In this document: piece by piece, positions 1,980 through 14,152 of the stretch
How positions within the stretch are numbered: position 1 is the first letter of the stretch
How the letters are laid out: each line of letters begins with the position of its first letter
From: a virus
Reading direction: 5' to 3' (one strand)
DNA: 24,721 nt
Virus record (IMG/VR): IMGVR_UViG_3300034068_000061
Location: 1-24,721 of that record
The notes under the pieces: generated by a model
The model's database searches: none
The model's input: the letters and a program-made list of their open reading frames with translations, nothing else
Told to the model about the DNA's origin: nothing
Translations under genes and position numbers: made by a program

Positions 1980-2188
1980 TGTTAGGTTATCAGTACTTTA
2001 CAGAACAAGAAGCAATAGACGCACGTAAGCAGTGTGCAGATTATTATGGTTTACCTGTTCATCCTGATGATGTTACTCAATACTGGGTAGATTATAATTA
2101 TTCAGAGCTTGGATTTTGGTATATAATTTTTTATGAAAGTATAAGAGATATATTAGGAGAACCAACTAATTTTGAAGTAATAACATGA
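1979..2188 (+). CDS. Small adhesin-partner protein B1 (hypothetical)
   Basis: A 69-residue acidic, aromatic-rich protein (YQYFTEQEAIDARKQCADYY at the start, YWVDYNYSELGFWYIIF in the middle). It has no signal peptide or membrane segment. Its ATG overlaps the stop of the adhesin gene (TAATG), and its own stop overlaps the next adhesin start (ATGA). A paralogue at 3006-3209 sits in the same position behind the second adhesin. Constant pairing of one small protein with each adhesin suggests a dedicated assembly chaperone or a small tip subunit, similar in logic to known fibre-chaperone pairs, but this is inference from context. I do not recognise the family. Confidence 0.65.
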   Translation: MLGYQYFTEQEAIDARKQCADYYGLPVHPDDVTQYWVDYNYSELGFWYIIFYESIRDILGEPTNFEVIT

Positions 2189-3006
2189 GTTACTATAGTC
2201 TAATTTCTTTGATGCCTAAAATTAGTGGAACACTATTATTAGACTTATATCCAAGTGCATCGGTAGCTTATTCGTTGCGTAAACTTAGAACAGCTTATGC
2301 AGGTAGTGCAATAAGAGTTAGAAGAACAGATTTAACAGAACAAGACATAGGGTTTGTTGGTGATGTTTTAGACACAGCTAGTTTGTTAGCGTTTGTTGGA
2401 ACTGGAGCTTTAGATAATGGATTTATAACAACTTGGTACGACCAAAGTGGTAATTCTAAAAATGCAACACAAGCAACTGCGATTAACCAACCGAGAATAG
2501 TAAATGCTGGAGTTATAGATTTGGTAAATGGAAAACCAGCAGTGTTAGGTGACGGAGTAAATGATACGTTAACTAATAATACACTTTCATTAACCAATCC
2601 TTCATCTATTTTTACAGTAGTTGATAAAGTTGGTACAAGTGGTAATTTTGGGTTATTTGCTGCAGGTTTAGCAGGTGCTTTTATATTAACAGCAACTGGT
2701 CACACGTTTTATCAAAATGGAGCTTCTTTTTCTCCAGCTTATGTTAATAATAATCAATCTTTACTTGTGGCTAAAACGGCAACAACTGGCACAGATTGGG
2801 AGTTTTATGGTAACAACACAACAGTACTTAATGGAGGTCAAAATATAGGTACAGCAATAGGTACAAGTGTAAGTTTATTTGATAGGTTAGGTGCAGCATC
2901 ACGAGCTAATATGTATATGCAAGAATTTATAGTCTGGAATAGCAACCAAATGAGTAATAGGATAAATATTCAAAATAATATAAATTCATTTTATACAATA
3001 TACTAA
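2185..3006 (+). CDS. Phage adhesin with LamG/arabinofuranosidase-B-like fold (short form)
   Basis: A 273-residue paralogue of the adhesin at 549-1979, lacking its central insert. It begins MSYYSLISLMPK, has AYSLRKLR and GSAIRVRR near residues 28-46, then LLAFVG directly followed by NGFITTWYDQSGNSKNATQ, then QPRIVNAGVIDLVNGKPAV, and ends NINSFYTIY. This order of motifs resembles the AbfB-like jelly-roll used in many phage tail appendages. The C-terminal nonapeptide is shared with the first copy, which may mark a common docking or trimer-ending strand. The gene overlaps its neighbours by 4 bases upstream and 1 base downstream. Probably a second receptor-binding protein or a shorter version in the same appendage; hydrolase activity is unproven. 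Confidence 0.72.
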   Translation: MSYYSLISLMPKISGTLLLDLYPSASVAYSLRKLRTAYAGSAIRVRRTDLTEQDIGFVGDVLDTASLLAFVGTGALDNGFITTWYDQSGNSKNATQATAINQPRIVNAGVIDLVNGKPAVLGDGVNDTLTNNTLSLTNPSSIFTVVDKVGTSGNFGLFAAGLAGAFILTATGHTFYQNGASFSPAYVNNNQSLLVAKTATTGTDWEFYGNNTTVLNGGQNIGTAIGTSVSLFDRLGAASRANMYMQEFIVWNSNQMSNRINIQNNINSFYTIY

Positions 3007-3209
3007 TGTTAGGCTACCAATATTTTATAGAACAAGATGCCATAAATGCACGTAAAGAATGTGCTGATTATTATGGATTGCCAAAGTCACCTGAAGATGA
3101 GACTATCTATTGGGTAAATTATGACTATTCAGAACTTAATTTTTGGTATATTATTTTTGATGAAAGTATTGAGGCTATATTAGGAAAACCAACAAATTTT
3201 GAGATATGA
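3006..3209 (+). CDS. Small adhesin-partner protein B2 (hypothetical)
   Basis: A 67-residue paralogue of the protein at 1979-2188: MLGYQYFIEQDAINARKECA, then YYGLPKSPEDETIYWVNYDY and SELNFWYIIFDESI. Conserved positions cluster in the aromatic core and the Cys-Ala-Asp-Tyr-Tyr segment. The start overlaps the adhesin stop (TAATG) and its stop overlaps the start of the lysis lipoprotein gene (ATGA), so fibre and lysis genes are continuous. Function unknown; candidate chaperone or tip subunit by association with the adhesin. Confidence 0.65.
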   Translation: MLGYQYFIEQDAINARKECADYYGLPKSPEDETIYWVNYDYSELNFWYIIFDESIEAILGKPTNFEI

Positions 3210-8826: not shown

Positions 8827-11256
8827 ATGGAGAAATTATCAGTTGTAATTTATCAGTCACCCTTCCCTAATCAGATGGCTACAGATGAAGAGAAAGCCAC
8901 TACAGAATACGGATTAAGAGTAGGAAAAGCGGTTGAAGGGGAGTGGTTTAAAAGAAAAGCAAATACTTGTAGATTTTACGATCAATGGGGAGAATTTCAC
9001 CGTTTAAGATTATACGCAAGAGGAGAGCAGCCAATTCAAAAATATAAGGATGAGTTGTCAGTTAATGGCGATATGTCTATGATGAATTTAGACTGGACTC
9101 CTATTCCAATTATACCAAAGTTCGTTGATATTGTTGTTAACGGAATGAACGATAGGTTATTCACAATCAAAGCCGAGTCTCAGGACGTAATGTCCGCTGA
9201 GAAGAAGAATATATTCCAGGACATGATAGAGGCTGACATGATAGCCAAAGAGTTCTTACAATTAACAAAAGATCAGTTTGGAGTTGACGCATTTAATGTT
9301 GACCCAAATGAATTGCCAGAGAACGATGAGGAGTTGTCTCTTTATATGCAACTTAAATACAAACCAAGTGTTGAGATCGCAGAAGAGGTAGCTATTGATA
9401 CAGTTCTTAAAATGAATGACTATCCTAAGATTAAGAAGATGGTTGATTATGACCTTACTGTTTTAGGTAAAGCGGTTGTTCGTCATACATTCTTGATTAA
9501 TGATGGTTTAAAAATTGATTATGTAGATCCTACAAATTTTATCCATAGTTATACAGAGAAGCCAGATTTCTCAGATTGTTATTATTTTGGAGAGGTTAAA
9601 CAAGTTCATTATACTGAGCTTCTTAAAATTGATCCTACCTTAACGGATGAGCAATTAAATGAGATTAGAAATGCTGCATCTGCTTGGTATGACTACTTCC
9701 CTATCATTAGAAGTTATCAAGACAGCGCATTTTTAAATGAGGTTGTTACATTGTTATATTTCAACTATAAGACTCATAAGAATTTTGTATGGAAGAAAAA
9801 GATTCTTGAGAATGGCGGTGAGCGAGTTATTAGAAAAGACGAGTCGTTCAATCCTCCAGTTGAAGAAGGTGTTCCATTCGAAAGAGTAGAAGCAGTTCGT
9901 GACGTTTGGTACGATGGTATATTAGTTGGTGGATCAAACATTGTGTTGAAATGGGAGATGATGAAGAATATGGTTCGTCCAAAATCAGCATCACAAATGG
10001 CTCTACCTAACTATGTGGTATTTTCACCAAGAATGTATAAAGGAAACTCTGAGTCTTTAGTTAGACGTATGATTCCTTTTGCTGATCAGATTCAGTTGAC
10101 TCACTTAAAATTACAGCAAGTAATGGCAAGAGTAGTTCCTGATGGGGTGTTTATTGATGCTGATGGTATTAATGAAGTTGACCTTGGAACTGGAGCAGCA
10201 TATAATCCAGAGGATGCATTAAAGATGTATTTCCAAACTGGTAGTGTTATCGGTAGAAGCTACACTCAAGATGGTGACTTTAATAATGCAAGAATTCCTA
10301 TTCAAGAGTTAAACTCTAATAGTGGTCAGTCTAAGATGGCAGCATTGATTGGTAACTATAACCACTATCTAAATATGATACGTGATGTTACTGGTATTAA
10401 TGAGGTTAGAGATGGATCGACACCAAATCCAGATGCATTAGTTGGGGTTCAAAAATTAGCTGCATTAAGTTCAAATACCGCAACAAGACACATTCTTGAG
10501 GGCGGTTTATCTATGACTAAAAAATTAGCTGAATGTATTTCGGTTAGAATTGCGGACATTTTAGAGTACGCTGATTTTGCTGAGGAGTTCGCTATGCAGA
10601 TAGGTAAATATAACGTTGCGATATTAGACGATGTTCGTGAGTTGTACTTGCATGACTTCGGTATCTTTATAGAGGTATCTCCAGATGAGGAGCAAAGACA
10701 AATGCTTGAGGCTAATATTCAAGTTTCGTTACAACAACAAACAATTGACTTAGAGGATGCTATTGACATTAGAATGATCAATAATATTAAGCTGGCAAAT
10801 GAGATGCTTAAAGTTAAGAGAAAGAAAAGAATGGAGCAAAAGCAAAAGGAAACAGAAATGAATTTCCAGATGCAGATGCAAACTAATCTACAGTCTCAAC
10901 AAGCAGCTGCTGAATCTAAAGCTCAAATGATACAGCTAGAAGCTCAATCTAAAATACAGTTAAGAGAAGCTGAAATGAATTTTGCTGTACAACAAATGCA
11001 AGCAGAGGCTCAAATAAAGGCTCAGTTAATGGATAAAGAGTTCCAGTATAATATGGCATTGAAAGGTGTTGATACTGAGAATTTGATGAAGCGTGAAGAT
11101 AAAAAAGAAGAAGCAAAAGATAAACGTGTAGATCTTCAAGCTACAAGACAGTCAGAGCTTATTAATCAAAGAAAGAACAATCTACCTCCATTAAATTTCG
11201 AATCAACAGAGGATTCTTTAGATGGTTTTGATTTAGAATCATTTGGACCTAAATAA
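8827..11256 (+). CDS. Portal protein with long helical C-terminal barrel
   Basis: An 809-residue protein, start codon directly after the terminase stop. Twelve copies would form the ring at the capsid vertex that DNA passes through. Residues 1-450 have the wing and clip features of crAss-like portals (for example NLDWTPIPIIPKFVDIVVNG near 90-115, YDLTVLGKAVVRH near 210, and the stem region RRMIPFADQIQLTHLKLQQ near 415). Residues 500-600 contain GINEVRDGSTPNPDALVGVQ and TATRHILEGG, typical of the crown-side helices. Residues about 615-780 are a very long Gln/Glu/Met/Lys-rich helix, which fits an extended internal barrel. It ends in a short acidic tail. Family call rests on recollection of crAss-like portal sequence; confidence in portal function is high. 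Confidence 0.9.
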   Translation: MEKLSVVIYQSPFPNQMATDEEKATTEYGLRVGKAVEGEWFKRKANTCRFYDQWGEFHRLRLYARGEQPIQKYKDELSVNGDMSMMNLDWTPIPIIPKFVDIVVNGMNDRLFTIKAESQDVMSAEKKNIFQDMIEADMIAKEFLQLTKDQFGVDAFNVDPNELPENDEELSLYMQLKYKPSVEIAEEVAIDTVLKMNDYPKIKKMVDYDLTVLGKAVVRHTFLINDGLKIDYVDPTNFIHSYTEKPDFSDCYYFGEVKQVHYTELLKIDPTLTDEQLNEIRNAASAWYDYFPIIRSYQDSAFLNEVVTLLYFNYKTHKNFVWKKKILENGGERVIRKDESFNPPVEEGVPFERVEAVRDVWYDGILVGGSNIVLKWEMMKNMVRPKSASQMALPNYVVFSPRMYKGNSESLVRRMIPFADQIQLTHLKLQQVMARVVPDGVFIDADGINEVDLGTGAAYNPEDALKMYFQTGSVIGRSYTQDGDFNNARIPIQELNSNSGQSKMAALIGNYNHYLNMIRDVTGINEVRDGSTPNPDALVGVQKLAALSSNTATRHILEGGLSMTKKLAECISVRIADILEYADFAEEFAMQIGKYNVAILDDVRELYLHDFGIFIEVSPDEEQRQMLEANIQVSLQQQTIDLEDAIDIRMINNIKLANEMLKVKRKKRMEQKQKETEMNFQMQMQTNLQSQQAAAESKAQMIQLEAQSKIQLREAEMNFAVQQMQAEAQIKAQLMDKEFQYNMALKGVDTENLMKREDKKEEAKDKRVDLQATRQSELINQRKNNLPPLNFESTEDSLDGFDLESFGPK

Positions 11257-11257
11257 T

Positions 11258-11356
11258 ATGTTTTTACATATAATAATTGGTATATCTATCATATTATATG
11301 CTTATGCACATAATTACGGTAAACGACTACAGTTACCGTATATTTGTTTACAGTAA
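11258..11356 (+). CDS. Possible 32-residue membrane peptide (doubtful)
   Basis: A short frame starting two bases after the portal stop: hydrophobic start MFLHIIIGISIILYAYAH, then a basic tail ending ICLQ. The close spacing to the portal gene and one membrane helix fit a small phage peptide. Against this, the frame overlaps three of the four TTACNGTAA palindromes and a promoter element, so the sequence here may be kept for DNA-binding rather than coding. Treat as a candidate only. Confidence 0.25.
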   Translation: MFLHIIIGISIILYAYAHNYGKRLQLPYICLQ

Positions 11357-11370
11357 GTAGTTTACTGTAA
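11314..11370. promoter_or_regulatory. Operator cluster: four TTACNGTAA palindromes
   Basis: Four 9-bp sites within 57 bases: TTACGGTAA (11314-11322), TTACCGTAT (11333-11341, one mismatch), TTACAGTAA (11348-11356) and TTACTGTAA (11362-11370). The central base is different in each, while the arms are kept. Start-to-start spacings are 19, 15 and 14 bases. They bracket and overlap a TATATTTG element, so a dimeric repressor or activator binding here is the simplest explanation. Confidence 0.6.
11339..11346 (+). promoter_or_regulatory. TATATTTG -7 element inside the operator cluster
   Basis: Exact TAnnTTTG match, overlapping the second TTACNGTAA site by three bases and lying just before the third. 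Transcription would start near 11353, within the third site, and run rightward through the intergenic region toward the scaffold and capsid genes. No -33 TTTG is visible. Confidence 0.45.
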
Positions 11371-11372
11371 AC
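11346..11372. repeat. 11-bp perfect inverted repeat
   Basis: GTTTACAGTAA (11346-11356) and TTACTGTAAAC (11362-11372) are exact reverse complements separated by GTAGT. It contains the third and fourth operator-like palindromes. There is no T-run on either side, so it is not an intrinsic terminator; a DNA-binding site or a 5' stem-loop of the rightward transcript is more likely. Confidence 0.7.
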
Positions 11373-11374
11373 TA

Positions 11375-11431
11375 GCTAATATATTATGCAGAATAGCTGT
11401 TTATCGGTTGTTTTGGCTAATATATTATACA
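11375..11431. repeat. Direct repeat GCTAATATATTATNCA, two copies 41 bp apart
   Basis: Copy 1 at 11375-11390 and copy 2 at 11416-11431 differ only at one base (G or A at position 14). Each contains the 10-bp palindrome TAATATATTA. The 41-bp period is close to four helical turns, which would put both on the same DNA face. Likely a second protein-binding site pair. Confidence 0.5.
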
Positions 11432-11476
11432 AAAGAAACCCACGCAGTTTTCTATTCGTCAATAGTCTTACGTGGG
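11429..11476 (-). terminator. Structured element with terminator form on the minus strand
   Basis: Outer stem 11439-11446 with 11469-11476 (8 pairs on the minus strand, including one G-U wobble that becomes a C-A mismatch on the plus strand), and inner stem 11452-11456 with 11461-11465 (CTATT/AATAG). Reading leftward the outer stem is followed by TTTCTTTTG (11438-11430). GC content of 11439-11476 is 18 of 38, high for this DNA. It could end minus-strand transcription or form the second domain of the RNA starting near 11580. One terminal wobble (11447/11468) favours the plus strand instead. Confidence 0.5.
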
Positions 11477-11516
11477 GATTTGTCATAAGTTATACCTTTC
11501 GGATTTCCTTTACACA

Positions 11517-11580
11517 GAAAAAGACCTCCGTAAGTGTGCCCGACTAGAACTCCAGTCCGTTATAAGCCTCAGAGGTACTG
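11517..11580 (-). ncRNA. Candidate minus-strand small structured RNA
   Basis: Predicted RNA of about 60 nucleotides read leftward. The closing stem pairs 11576-11570 with 11530-11524 (ACCTCTG with CGGAGGT, 7 pairs with one G-U). An inner hairpin GACTGG-AGTT-CTAGTC (11557-11542) has 6 pairs with one G-U. It ends in CTTTTT (11523-11518), like an intrinsic terminator. On the plus strand each of these wobbles becomes a C-A mismatch, so pairing points to the minus strand. GC content of 11521-11580 is 31 of 60, far above the surrounding genes. A TATATTTG element lies directly upstream on the minus strand. No known RNA family is recognised; tRNA was considered and rejected. Confidence 0.5.
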
Positions 11581-11585
11581 TTCCG

Positions 11586-11593
11586 CAAATATA
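11586..11593 (-). promoter_or_regulatory. Minus-strand TATATTTG -7 element
   Basis: The plus-strand sequence CAAATATA reads TATATTTG on the minus strand. It would start transcription near 11580, right at the base of the structured RNA element. A TTTA sits 19 bases upstream, one base from the TTTG -33 consensus. It forms a back-to-back pair with the plus-strand element at 11605-11612. Confidence 0.45.
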
Positions 11594-11604
11594 AAAAATA
11601 TAAT

Positions 11605-11612
11605 TATATTTG
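11605..11612 (+). promoter_or_regulatory. TATATTTG -7 element for scaffold and capsid genes
   Basis: Exact TAnnTTTG match, 18 bases before the ATG at 11631, giving a short A-rich leader. Same element and similar distance as at 5305 and 15384. It likely drives the scaffold and major capsid genes up to the terminator at 14163-14200. No -33 TTTG is visible. Confidence 0.6.
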
Positions 11613-11630
11613 TAAAAAAAATATAATAAA

Positions 11631-12728
11631 ATGTCAGAAGAATTTAAAGTACGTGCTGTTGACTTTGAAGAAAAGTCGGTAGCTGAGATTGAACAACAGT
11701 TGCTTGATGAACACGCAGAAAAGACTGGAGCAGTTGAAGAAGAGGCAGTTGATACTGTAGTAGTCGAAACTCCAGCGGTAGTGGAAAGTCAAGAAATTGA
11801 GATTGATGATAATAGAGTTCTTTCATATATTGGGAAAAGGTACAATAAGGAGATTACTAATCTTGATGAGTTATTTGAGCAAAGATCAAATAATGAGGAT
11901 TTAGATCCAGAGGTAGCAACATACTTAAAGTACAAGAAAGAAACTGGTCGTGGGATCGAGGATTTTATTCAGTTGAATAAAGATTACGATTCAATGGACC
12001 AAGATCAGTTGTTATTCGAATATCATAAAGGTGTAGATAAAGATTTAGACGTTGATGATATTAAGTTTGACCTTGAATCAAAGTTTGCATACGATACTGA
12101 TTATGATGACGAGAAAGAAATTAAGAAGAAACAACTGGCAAAGAAAAGAGAACTTACAAAAGCTAAGGAGTATTTTAACGGATTAAAAGAACAATACAAA
12201 GTTCCACTTGAGTCAAGGGAGTCTTTAGTTCCAAATGAAGAGAAAGAAACATACGAAGCTTACAAAAGTTATAAACAAGCTGCGTCACAAGCGGATGAGG
12301 AGCAACAAAAAAAGTCAAAGTATTTCTCTGACAAAACCAATGAACTATTCTCTGATAAATTCGAAGGTTTCGGATTCAACATTGATGAGAATAAGAAGGT
12401 GGTATATAAACCAGGGGATTCGACAGACTTACTTAAAGAACAATCTAATTTAGAGAACTTCGTATCGAAGTTTTTAAATGATGAGGGTTATCTTAAAGAT
12501 GCTGAAGCATTTCACCGTTCTATTGCAGTGGCATCAAACCCTGAGAAGTTTGCTAAATTCTTTTATGAAAAAGGAATGGCAGAAGCGGTAGGTAATGTAG
12601 CTAGAGAGTCTAAAAATATTGATATGACTCGTCAAGCAACACAGATTACACCGCCTCAAGGAATGAAGGTTACAGCTTTAGATGATGGTCGCAACGGAAG
12701 ATTAGTTATAAGGAATATTAAAAATTAA
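11631..12728 (+). CDS. Capsid scaffolding protein (probable)
   Basis: A 365-residue, highly acidic, helix-rich protein located between portal and major capsid genes, the normal place for an internal scaffold. Residues 1-60 are Glu/Val-rich and low-complexity. Residues 60-240 are charged helices with coiled-coil character (KEIKKKQLAKKRELTKAKEY near 165). The C-terminal part 280-365 is more mixed and ends in a basic strand (RNGRLVIRNIKN), fitting the capsid-binding end of many scaffolds. No protease motif is seen. Scaffold would organise capsid assembly and leave before packaging. Identification rests on composition and gene order, not on a motif. Confidence 0.75.
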   Translation: MSEEFKVRAVDFEEKSVAEIEQQLLDEHAEKTGAVEEEAVDTVVVETPAVVESQEIEIDDNRVLSYIGKRYNKEITNLDELFEQRSNNEDLDPEVATYLKYKKETGRGIEDFIQLNKDYDSMDQDQLLFEYHKGVDKDLDVDDIKFDLESKFAYDTDYDDEKEIKKKQLAKKRELTKAKEYFNGLKEQYKVPLESRESLVPNEEKETYEAYKSYKQAASQADEEQQKKSKYFSDKTNELFSDKFEGFGFNIDENKKVVYKPGDSTDLLKEQSNLENFVSKFLNDEGYLKDAEAFHRSIAVASNPEKFAKFFYEKGMAEAVGNVARESKNIDMTRQATQITPPQGMKVTALDDGRNGRLVIRNIKN

Positions 12729-12742
12729 AAACAAAAAACAAA

Positions 12743-14152
12743 ATGGCTGGAACAATCGCAGCGAACCCAGGTGTATCAATTACACCTAGCGCAGTAAAGG
12801 CAACATTGCCTTCAAATTACATTACAAACTTTGATTTCTTGAATCAGTATTTACCAGATACTTACGAGAAAGAATTCGAACGTTACGGTAATCGCTCTAT
12901 CGCATCATTCTTAAGAATGGTTGGAGCTGAGTTACCATCTAACTCTGACTTGATCAAATGGGCAGAGCAAGGTCGTTTACACACTAAGTATACTGCTTGT
13001 TCTATCGCTTATGGACCAAATAATGATACAGCTGTATTAACAGTTGCTGATGCTGGAATTACTGCTTGTAACTTTAGAGTTGGTCAAACAGTTTTCTTAT
13101 CGTCTAACGTTAACTCAGCACAGTCTGATAAAGCTATCGTTACAGCAGTATCTGCTTTAACATTTGACGTTGCTTATTATGCAGCAGCTGGTGGTACAAT
13201 CACTGACTCTGGAAACAACGATATTACAGCTTTCGTTTACGGTTCAGAGTTCAAAAAAGGAACTAGTGGAATGTCTGGTTCATTGGAAGCTCAAGATAGT
13301 TTCTTTGAGGTTTCTCCAATCATCATCAAAGATAAGTATGTAGTATCAGGTTCTGATATGGCACAAATCGGATGGGTTGAGGTTACAACTGAGAACGGAG
13401 CTACTGGTTACTTGTGGTACATGAAGTCAGAGCACGAAACACGTTTACGTTTTGAGGACTACCTTGAAATGACAATGGTAGAGGGTGTTCCAGCTGAAGC
13501 TAATTCAGGAGCTGCTGCACTTGGATTAAGTAGTGCTTTAGGAAATAAAGGAACAAACGGTTTATTTAACACAGTTGAAAGTCGTGGTAATGTTTGGTCT
13601 GGAGGTAATCCAACTACATTGTCTGATTTCGATACAATCGTTCAGCGTTTGGACAAACAAGGAGCTATTGCTGAGAATGCATTGTTCTTAAACCGTCAAT
13701 TCTCTTTTGATATTGATGATATGTTAGCTGCTCAAAACTCTTATGGAGTTGGTGGTACATCTTACGGTTTGTTTGACAACAGTGAGCAAATGGCATTGAA
13801 TTTAGGTTTCACAGGTTTCCGTAGAGGTTATGAGTTCTACAAAACTGACTGGAAATACTTGAACGATGCTACATTGCGTGGTGGTCTAGTAGGTGGTGCT
13901 GTAAATGGAGTTTTAGTTCCAGCTGGAACAACTACTGTTTATGACCAAGTATTAGGTAAAAACGCAAAACGTCCATTCTTACACGTACGTTACCGTGCTT
14001 CTGAAGCAGAGAACAGACGTTACAAAACTTGGATGACTGGTTCAGCTGGTGGAGCACAAACAAGCGACTTGGATGCAATGGAGGTTAACTTCTTGTCTGA
14101 AAGAGCGTTGTGTACATTAGGAGCAAACAACTTCTTTATCTTCAAAGGATAA
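12743..14152 (+). CDS. Major capsid protein
   Basis: A 469-residue HK97-fold capsid subunit. The N-terminal region (NFDFLNQYLPDTYEKEFERY followed by GNRSIASFLRMVGAELPSNS and QGRLHTKY) closely resembles what I recall of crAss-like major capsid proteins. Residues about 85-170 look like an inserted beta domain (NNDTAVLTVADAG, FRVGQTVFLSS, DKAIVTAV) over the axial domain, a known site of variation in this group. The rest carries long spine-helix and P-domain segments (YLWYMKSEHETRLRFEDYLE). Codons are noticeably richer in C/G-ending choices (aac, tac, cgt) than those of neighbours, as expected for the most highly expressed gene. Ends at a strong terminator. Confidence 0.92.
   Translation: MAGTIAANPGVSITPSAVKATLPSNYITNFDFLNQYLPDTYEKEFERYGNRSIASFLRMVGAELPSNSDLIKWAEQGRLHTKYTACSIAYGPNNDTAVLTVADAGITACNFRVGQTVFLSSNVNSAQSDKAIVTAVSALTFDVAYYAAAGGTITDSGNNDITAFVYGSEFKKGTSGMSGSLEAQDSFFEVSPIIIKDKYVVSGSDMAQIGWVEVTTENGATGYLWYMKSEHETRLRFEDYLEMTMVEGVPAEANSGAAALGLSSALGNKGTNGLFNTVESRGNVWSGGNPTTLSDFDTIVQRLDKQGAIAENALFLNRQFSFDIDDMLAAQNSYGVGGTSYGLFDNSEQMALNLGFTGFRRGYEFYKTDWKYLNDATLRGGLVGGAVNGVLVPAGTTTVYDQVLGKNAKRPFLHVRYRASEAENRRYKTWMTGSAGGAQTSDLDAMEVNFLSERALCTLGANNFFIFKG

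Follow-up and report, generated by a model that had tools for sequence, protein, structure and literature searches.

The window, the whole 24,721-nucleotide stretch of viral DNA analysed here, carries on its minus strand a structured small RNA gene of about 150 nt, which is a member of a previously undescribed RNA family found in many different phages. The RNA is predicted to be transcribed from its own Bacteroidota-type promoter and to end at its own terminator, and its first hairpin (P1) appears to mimic, and probably derives from, the abiF-type antitoxin that Bacteroidota encode upstream of abortive-infection genes of the AbiD/AbiF (Abi_2, HEPN RNase) kind. On the basis of the comparisons described below, the RNA is probably a stand-alone antitoxin mimic that neutralises AbiF-type RNases of the host. 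The order on the minus strand is promoter, P1 hairpin, P2 middle domain, and P3 hairpin with U-tract (terminator), and the features of the region are as follows.

11257–11630, no strand assigned: accessory insertion site, the 374-nt gap between the portal-like gene (8827–11256) and the scaffold-like gene (11631–12728)
11430–11581, minus strand: the whole small RNA gene, about 150 nt, from the alignment of 21 distinct copies and covariance model R1
11586–11593, minus strand: putative promoter −7 element TATATTTG of the Bacteroidota TAnnTTTG type, 4 nt upstream of ACAGUACC
11524–11576, minus strand: P1, abiF-antitoxin-like hairpin, from compensatory pairs and the match to host RNA L212
11484–11514, minus strand: P2, stem UGU(A)AAG/CUUAUG with a conserved internal loop GAAA/UAUAA and a small hairpin CC-GAAA-GG, from covariation
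11431–11476, minus strand: P3, terminator hairpin (11476–11470/11445–11439, apical CUAUU-GACG-AAUAG at 11465–11452) and U-tract (11438–11431)
11605–11612, plus strand: putative promoter TATATTTG of the downstream scaffold-like gene, with TAnnTTTG similarly spaced from the start codon in RNA-less relatives

The 24.7-kb record appears to be a fragment of a Bacteroidota phage, and the promoter type and marker proteins point to hosts among the Bacteroidia. All of its long genes are on the plus strand. The major capsid protein (12743–14152) has 63% identity to a homologue from an uncultured phage and about 50% to those of Flavobacterium elemo phages, and it also matches Cellulophaga and Maribacter phages. 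The names portal-like and scaffold-like (365 aa) are taken from gene order. Four IMG/VR relatives (L002/L082, L085, L088, and L090) have the same gap as the window and share with it a conserved stretch that runs from P1 through GUGUAAAGGAAAUCCGAAAGGUAUAACUUAUGAC (P2) and P3 to a U run on the minus strand. Other relatives have the same portal-like and scaffold-like genes without the RNA, and in relatives the interval is often merely 30–50 nt or is occupied by small ORFs, among them one of 210 aa and one for a GIY-YIG-like endonuclease. The GIY-YIG-like ORFs (MTGIYKI.SPSG.IYIGQ) occupy the insertion site of L085 and L028, adjoining the RNA in L085, and a homing endonuclease could be the route by which the cassette entered the site between the portal-like and scaffold-like genes. 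The gap also contains, at 11346–11372 and 11375–11434, an inverted repeat of 11 bp without mismatch, GTTTACAGTAA/TTACTGTAAAC, together with GCTAATATATTAT motifs that recur; similar motifs are present in the RNA-less relatives L030 and L013. Elsewhere in the window, two adjacent gene pairs (476 aa + 69 aa at 549–2188 and 273 aa + 67 aa at 2185–3209) look paralogous, as from a local duplication.

The sequence-only reading had placed a minus-strand small RNA gene at 11517–11580. Both of the helices that it described are present: the closing helix 11576–11570/11530–11524 (ACCUCUG/CGGAGGU) has 7 bp including one U-G pair and the inner hairpin 11557–11552/11547–11542 (GACUGG/CUAGUC) has 6 bp including one G-U pair, and these pairs would read C-A on the plus strand, as had been argued for the polarity of the element. 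The GC content (31 of 60 bases, as compared with 34.5% for the record) and the upstream TATATTTG at 11593–11586 are likewise as first noted. The proposal of a structured minus-strand gene with its own putative promoter stands, but its extent does not, because the gene is about 150 nt rather than 64 nt and the element first noted is only its 5' third. The CUUUUU that had been taken as the end of the element does follow the hairpin but is not the main terminator, and the RNA runs about 90 nt further to P3. An inverted repeat at 11438–11478, considered as a second and inverted copy of the element, was rejected as such; it is the terminator hairpin P3 of this same RNA.

The start of the RNA is put near 11580, and the promoter and terminator are predictions from sequence. 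TAnnTTTG is found 4–5 nt before ACAG/ACUG in all family members that have upstream sequence, and its nn positions differ between members (TATCTTTG, TACATTTG). The minus-strand element folds at −25.6 kcal/mol (z −2.30), with 2 of 200 dinucleotide shuffles equally good, and the plus strand at −12.8 (z −0.66), with 45 of 200 shuffles equally good; for the whole RNA, single-sequence folding gives weak z-scores of −0.8 to −1.6. Folding alone is thus above chance but modest.

The family was collected by two pattern scans of IMG/VR, one with the P3 core and one with the P2 core, followed by the covariance model R1, with which 26 first copies were found, as well as three tandem copies that have diverged and a partial one (L171). 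R1 covers 11430–11581 of the window at 137 bits, the window being part of its training set. At least 26 IMG/VR phage records carry the RNA, and the proteins that immediately flank it fall into nine groups, so the cassette is not tied to capsid genes; the phages are not wholly unrelated, since counting any shared protein within 9 kb joins all contigs into one group. In a 38-pair structure drawn on 21 distinct sequences, 93.9% of cells are paired and 15 pairs show changes on both sides. When partners are slid by 1–3 columns, pairing falls to 34–43%, and none of 500 shuffles reaches the observed values on any measure, a count that is not a probability because the structure was drawn from the same sequences and the copies are related. 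A stronger argument is the variety of pair types, with C-G, G-C, G-U, and A-U all occurring at pair 10–54 and five different basal stems in P3. Run independently, RNAalifold recovers the stems of P1 and P3 and counts 11 compensatory pairs in them. The substitutions in relatives, which had been proposed as a test of strand, keep the minus-strand pairs, G-U pairs included, and conservation and covariation settle the reality of the element.

No match to the window or the element was found in Rfam scans, a scan for tRNA and tmRNA found nothing, and distant blastn searches of GenBank phages and plasmids with three family members yielded no member of the family. Two matches to the P3 hairpin pattern in a genome collection were rejected as chance, the rest of the RNA being missing there. 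A second, diverged copy of the RNA lies directly upstream of the first in three records (L184:3702–3846, L199:5271–5415, and L198:1259–1403, all minus strand). This copy has a terminator to itself and, still farther upstream, a promoter-like TAnnTTTG; in L184 and L199 the inner P1 hairpin is also duplicated within the first copy. One phage contig has a sub-threshold match to a type III hammerhead ribozyme (L197:51–105, minus strand; 29.7 bits, E 0.021).

The three domains differ in how they vary. (i) P1 comprises a stem (11576–11570/11530–11524), a bulged A (11569), a second stem (11567–11564/11541–11538), an apical stem (11557–11552/11547–11542), and a 3' internal loop ACACUUA (11537–11531), with compensatory changes at alignment pairs 10–54, 11–53, 12–52, 15–44, 16–43, 25–40, 26–39, and 28–37. 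(ii) P2 is supported mainly by pair 73–131, which has changed from A-U to G-C in three sequences, and by the tandem copy of L184/L198, in which its stem is remade as GUUACCGG/CUGGUAAC around an unchanged internal loop; four pair types also occur at 118–123. P2 is absent in L167, enlarged in L170 and L173, and remade in the second copy of L184, while the loop GAAA/UAUAA stays. (iii) P3 has the basal stems CCCACG/CGUGGG, CCCAUG/CAUGGG, CCCUUG/CAAGGG, CCCAAA/UUUGGG, and CCCACU/AGUGGG and the apical stems CUAUU/AAUAG, AUAUU/AAUAU, and CUAGU/GCUAG, and its U-tract is found only on the minus strand.

The resemblance of P1 to host antitoxins emerged from a comparison of R1, built from phage sequences only, with 295 Bacteroidia genomes. 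Under strict filters, by which weak matches are lost, a single match was obtained (L205/L206); it consists of P1 alone, ends in a U-tract, and lies about 20 nt before a gene assigned as Abi_2 by Pfam (1e-56) and as AbiD by PADLOC (7e-79). Chance was assessed with 59 Bacteroidia loci drawn purely by their Abi_2 protein and an R1 cut-off of E<0.1, at which 21 loci gave a match: 15 of 32 (three of these loci being from the first genome) and, in a further set of 27 from one family, 6. Both strands of 201 kb were searched, and each of the 21 matches starts about 140–245 nt before the Abi_2 domain, on the coding strand. This count is conservative because abiF-type hairpins can be seen by eye at several of the unmatched loci (L209, L216, L221, L224, L227, L229, and L230). 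The Rfam abiF model (RF03085) scores the L206 hairpin from the host at 25.6 bits against a gathering score of 37 and does not match the phage RNA at gathering or permissive thresholds. Its consensus nevertheless has the architecture of P1, namely a 6-bp stem, an A, a short stem, a loop, a 6-nt 3' internal loop starting with CA, and a stem, and alignment and pair counts against the Rfam consensus place the phage P1 within this architecture. The loop has 7 nt in the window, where a G-A stands in place of the first pair beyond the bulge, and host RNA L212 reads alike at that pair. Host and phage RNAs have in common an ACARUACC start, the bulged A, a CA-containing 3' internal loop, and a GGUCUUUU tail, and the promoter spacing of Bacteroidota abiF RNAs is similar to that of the phage family. 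The Bacteroidota host RNAs matched by R1 are abiF-type antitoxins.

The phage RNA itself does not lie upstream of an Abi_2/AbiF gene, as its host look-alikes do, and no PF07751 (Abi_2) gene was found in 24 phage records, all genome fragments, of which 23 have the RNA and one has a partial copy. Not all Abi_2 loci show the hairpin: upstream of Abi_2 proteins that start MGxxATT or similarly (L232–L236 and L264–L269) no abiF hairpin is visible, and these proteins may use a different RNA. At L207, a promoter-like TATATTTG and a structured, GC-rich stretch are divergent from a weak (30-bit) minus-strand Abi_2 gene of 240 aa; this stretch is possibly a different class of antitoxin RNA.

Different phages carry versions of P1 that, by sequence, resemble different host subtypes. 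P1 of the window (ACCUCUGAGGCUU...GCACACUUA...GGAGGU) is closest to L212 (ACCUCUCAGGCUU...GCACACUU...GGGGGGU), which lies upstream of an Abi_2 gene, with a z of 4.6 and a score of 36 that was reached by 0 of 300 shuffles; P1 of L085, L168, and L170 is closest to the host RNAs L206/L222 (z 7.4–7.9, with 7.9 for L085 and L168), and the second copy in L184 has AGCAUACCGUAAG(A/C)UCUGC in common with L220, L221, and L229 (z 5.6 against L229). The host RNAs in these comparisons were hand-picked, and the z-scores are accordingly indicative rather than exact. P1 of L167 and of L197 gave no significant primary-sequence match among the sampled host RNAs. L085 has the backbone of the window, but the variable part of its P1 is letter for letter that of L168, which indicates that modules have been swapped.

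Retention of the antitoxin form, the lack of an adjacent toxin gene, the RNA's own promoter and terminator, and module swapping together make a counter-defence mimic the best explanation. AbiF and AbiD proteins are HEPN RNases. In the mechanism that we propose, the phage would supply the antitoxin in trans during infection, binding of the RNA would hold the host's AbiF toxin in an inactive state, and the infected cell would not be shut down before phage production. P1 would be the swappable specificity part, exchanged between phages to fit AbiF subtypes, and P2 and P3 would stabilise and end the RNA or act on further partners. Transcription during infection, AbiF binding, neutralisation, and the benefit to the phage are the steps that we infer within this scheme. 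AbiF-type RNases are considered ancestors of Cas13, and their RNA antitoxin has been characterised only recently; a widespread phage copy of it, if confirmed, would be a natural counter-defence to AbiF, and each phage P1 variant with its host AbiF subtype would be a directly testable matched pair.

AbiF blocking may be only part of the function, because more than half of the RNA consists of P2 and P3, for which no counterpart is known upstream of Abi_2 genes; a search for them near these genes found nothing convincing. An extension of the mimic reading, which we hold as tentative, is that each of the three domains copies a host RNA of its own, such as an antitoxin or another RNA cofactor of a defence system. 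Like P1, the other two domains are conserved and structured, the P2 loop is kept through the loss, enlargement, and remaking of the domain around it, and some phages have two whole RNAs in tandem, all of which would fit such a decoy. Against it, the P2 model had zero matches in the 295 Bacteroidia genomes (strict filters, scan without a positive control), the matches of the P3 model in these genomes resemble ordinary terminators, and toxins of the ToxN family are almost absent from the Bacteroidia sample. Mimicry of ToxI was considered and is unlikely, ToxN (PF13958) being essentially absent in Bacteroidia. In its broadest and equally speculative form, the extension would make the RNA a modular, transferable cassette of Bacteroidota phages in which interchangeable domains copy different host RNA cofactors and hairpin swapping re-targets it to several Abi enzymes. 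A single transcript, or a tandem pair, might then put several abortive-infection enzymes out of action together, and P2 and P3 may hint at additional defences that depend on RNA.

It is unlikely that the RNA is an ordinary regulatory RNA whose P1 form was inherited from an abiF antitoxin and now serves base pairing or another protein. Three domains with their own promoter and terminator are indeed the layout of a trans-acting small RNA, but the bulged A and the 3' internal loop are kept in P1, the variants resemble different host subtypes, and the freedom of the stem sequences to change argues against base pairing by the stems. An RNA anti-CRISPR that mimics a repeat is highly improbable; solitary phage mimics of CRISPR repeats are known (PMC10651486), but the bacterial look-alikes found here lie upstream of Abi_2 genes, not of CRISPR arrays. 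The suggestion made with the first description of the element, that it regulates the capsid/portal operon or serves in packaging, has very little left to recommend it. In the window the RNA does lie between the portal-like and scaffold-like genes, and its promoter diverges from the plus-strand promoter of the scaffold-like gene, but this neighbourhood is confined to one small phage group, the RNA is beside other genes in eight other contexts, and relatives with the same two genes do without it; with nine flanking contexts, the constant association with packaging or capsid genes expected of an RNA of the phi29 pRNA kind is not seen. That there is no gene, only a hairpin that arose by chance or a terminator serving the portal operon on the plus strand, might have been entertained from the modest folding scores but is scarcely credible given the covariation, the spread of the family, and a promoter and U-tract that are consistently on the minus strand.

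The mimic reading can be set beside several known systems. In Clostridioides difficile, AbiF is neutralised both in cis and in trans by RCd22, an RNA that has two abiF motifs and binds the toxin directly; PDB entry 8vz6 shows an AbiF dimer from Prevotellaceae together with its ncRNA (PMC12373285). The Abi protein encoded next to L212 gives a match of 1e-46 to this entry. The phage RNA is like abiF RNA (RF03085) and RCd22 in the architecture of the P1 hairpin and its conserved unpaired positions, and like the Bacteroidota abiF versions in the ACARUACC 5' flank and GGUCUUUU 3' flank, but it has no toxin gene, has two extra domains, and falls outside the Rfam model. A match to Rfam abiF (51.6 bits, 37 nt) has been listed for cyanophage S-CREM1, with no defence interpretation in the part of the report consulted (PMC9964418); S-CREM1 is likewise a phage genome with an abiF-type hairpin but belongs to another phage and host group. 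The solitary Racr RNAs of phages (PMC10651486) similarly copy the RNA partner of a defence protein, but they imitate CRISPR repeats, whereas the RNA described here resembles antitoxins. In the literature searched, no report of a phage mimic of the abiF antitoxin was found. The closest parallel in kind is pseudo-ToxI of Pectobacterium phage PhiTE, a phage mimic of a host RNA antitoxin that allows escape from abortive infection (PMC3475682). In both cases a phage-borne RNA resembles the RNA antitoxin of an abortive-infection system, here in 24 phage records without the toxin gene, and repeat expansion and module recombination are seen; pseudo-ToxI targets ToxN and is a pseudoknot, whereas the target here would be AbiF, a HEPN protein, the RNA is a bulged hairpin, and it is a dedicated multi-domain gene present in many different phages. 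If the mimic reading is correct, mimicry of RNA antitoxins would be recurrent and not confined to the single case of PhiTE. PhiTE already provides an example of a phage RNA that copies an RNA antitoxin; new here are the three-domain cassette and its fold, its proposed target, and its wide distribution.
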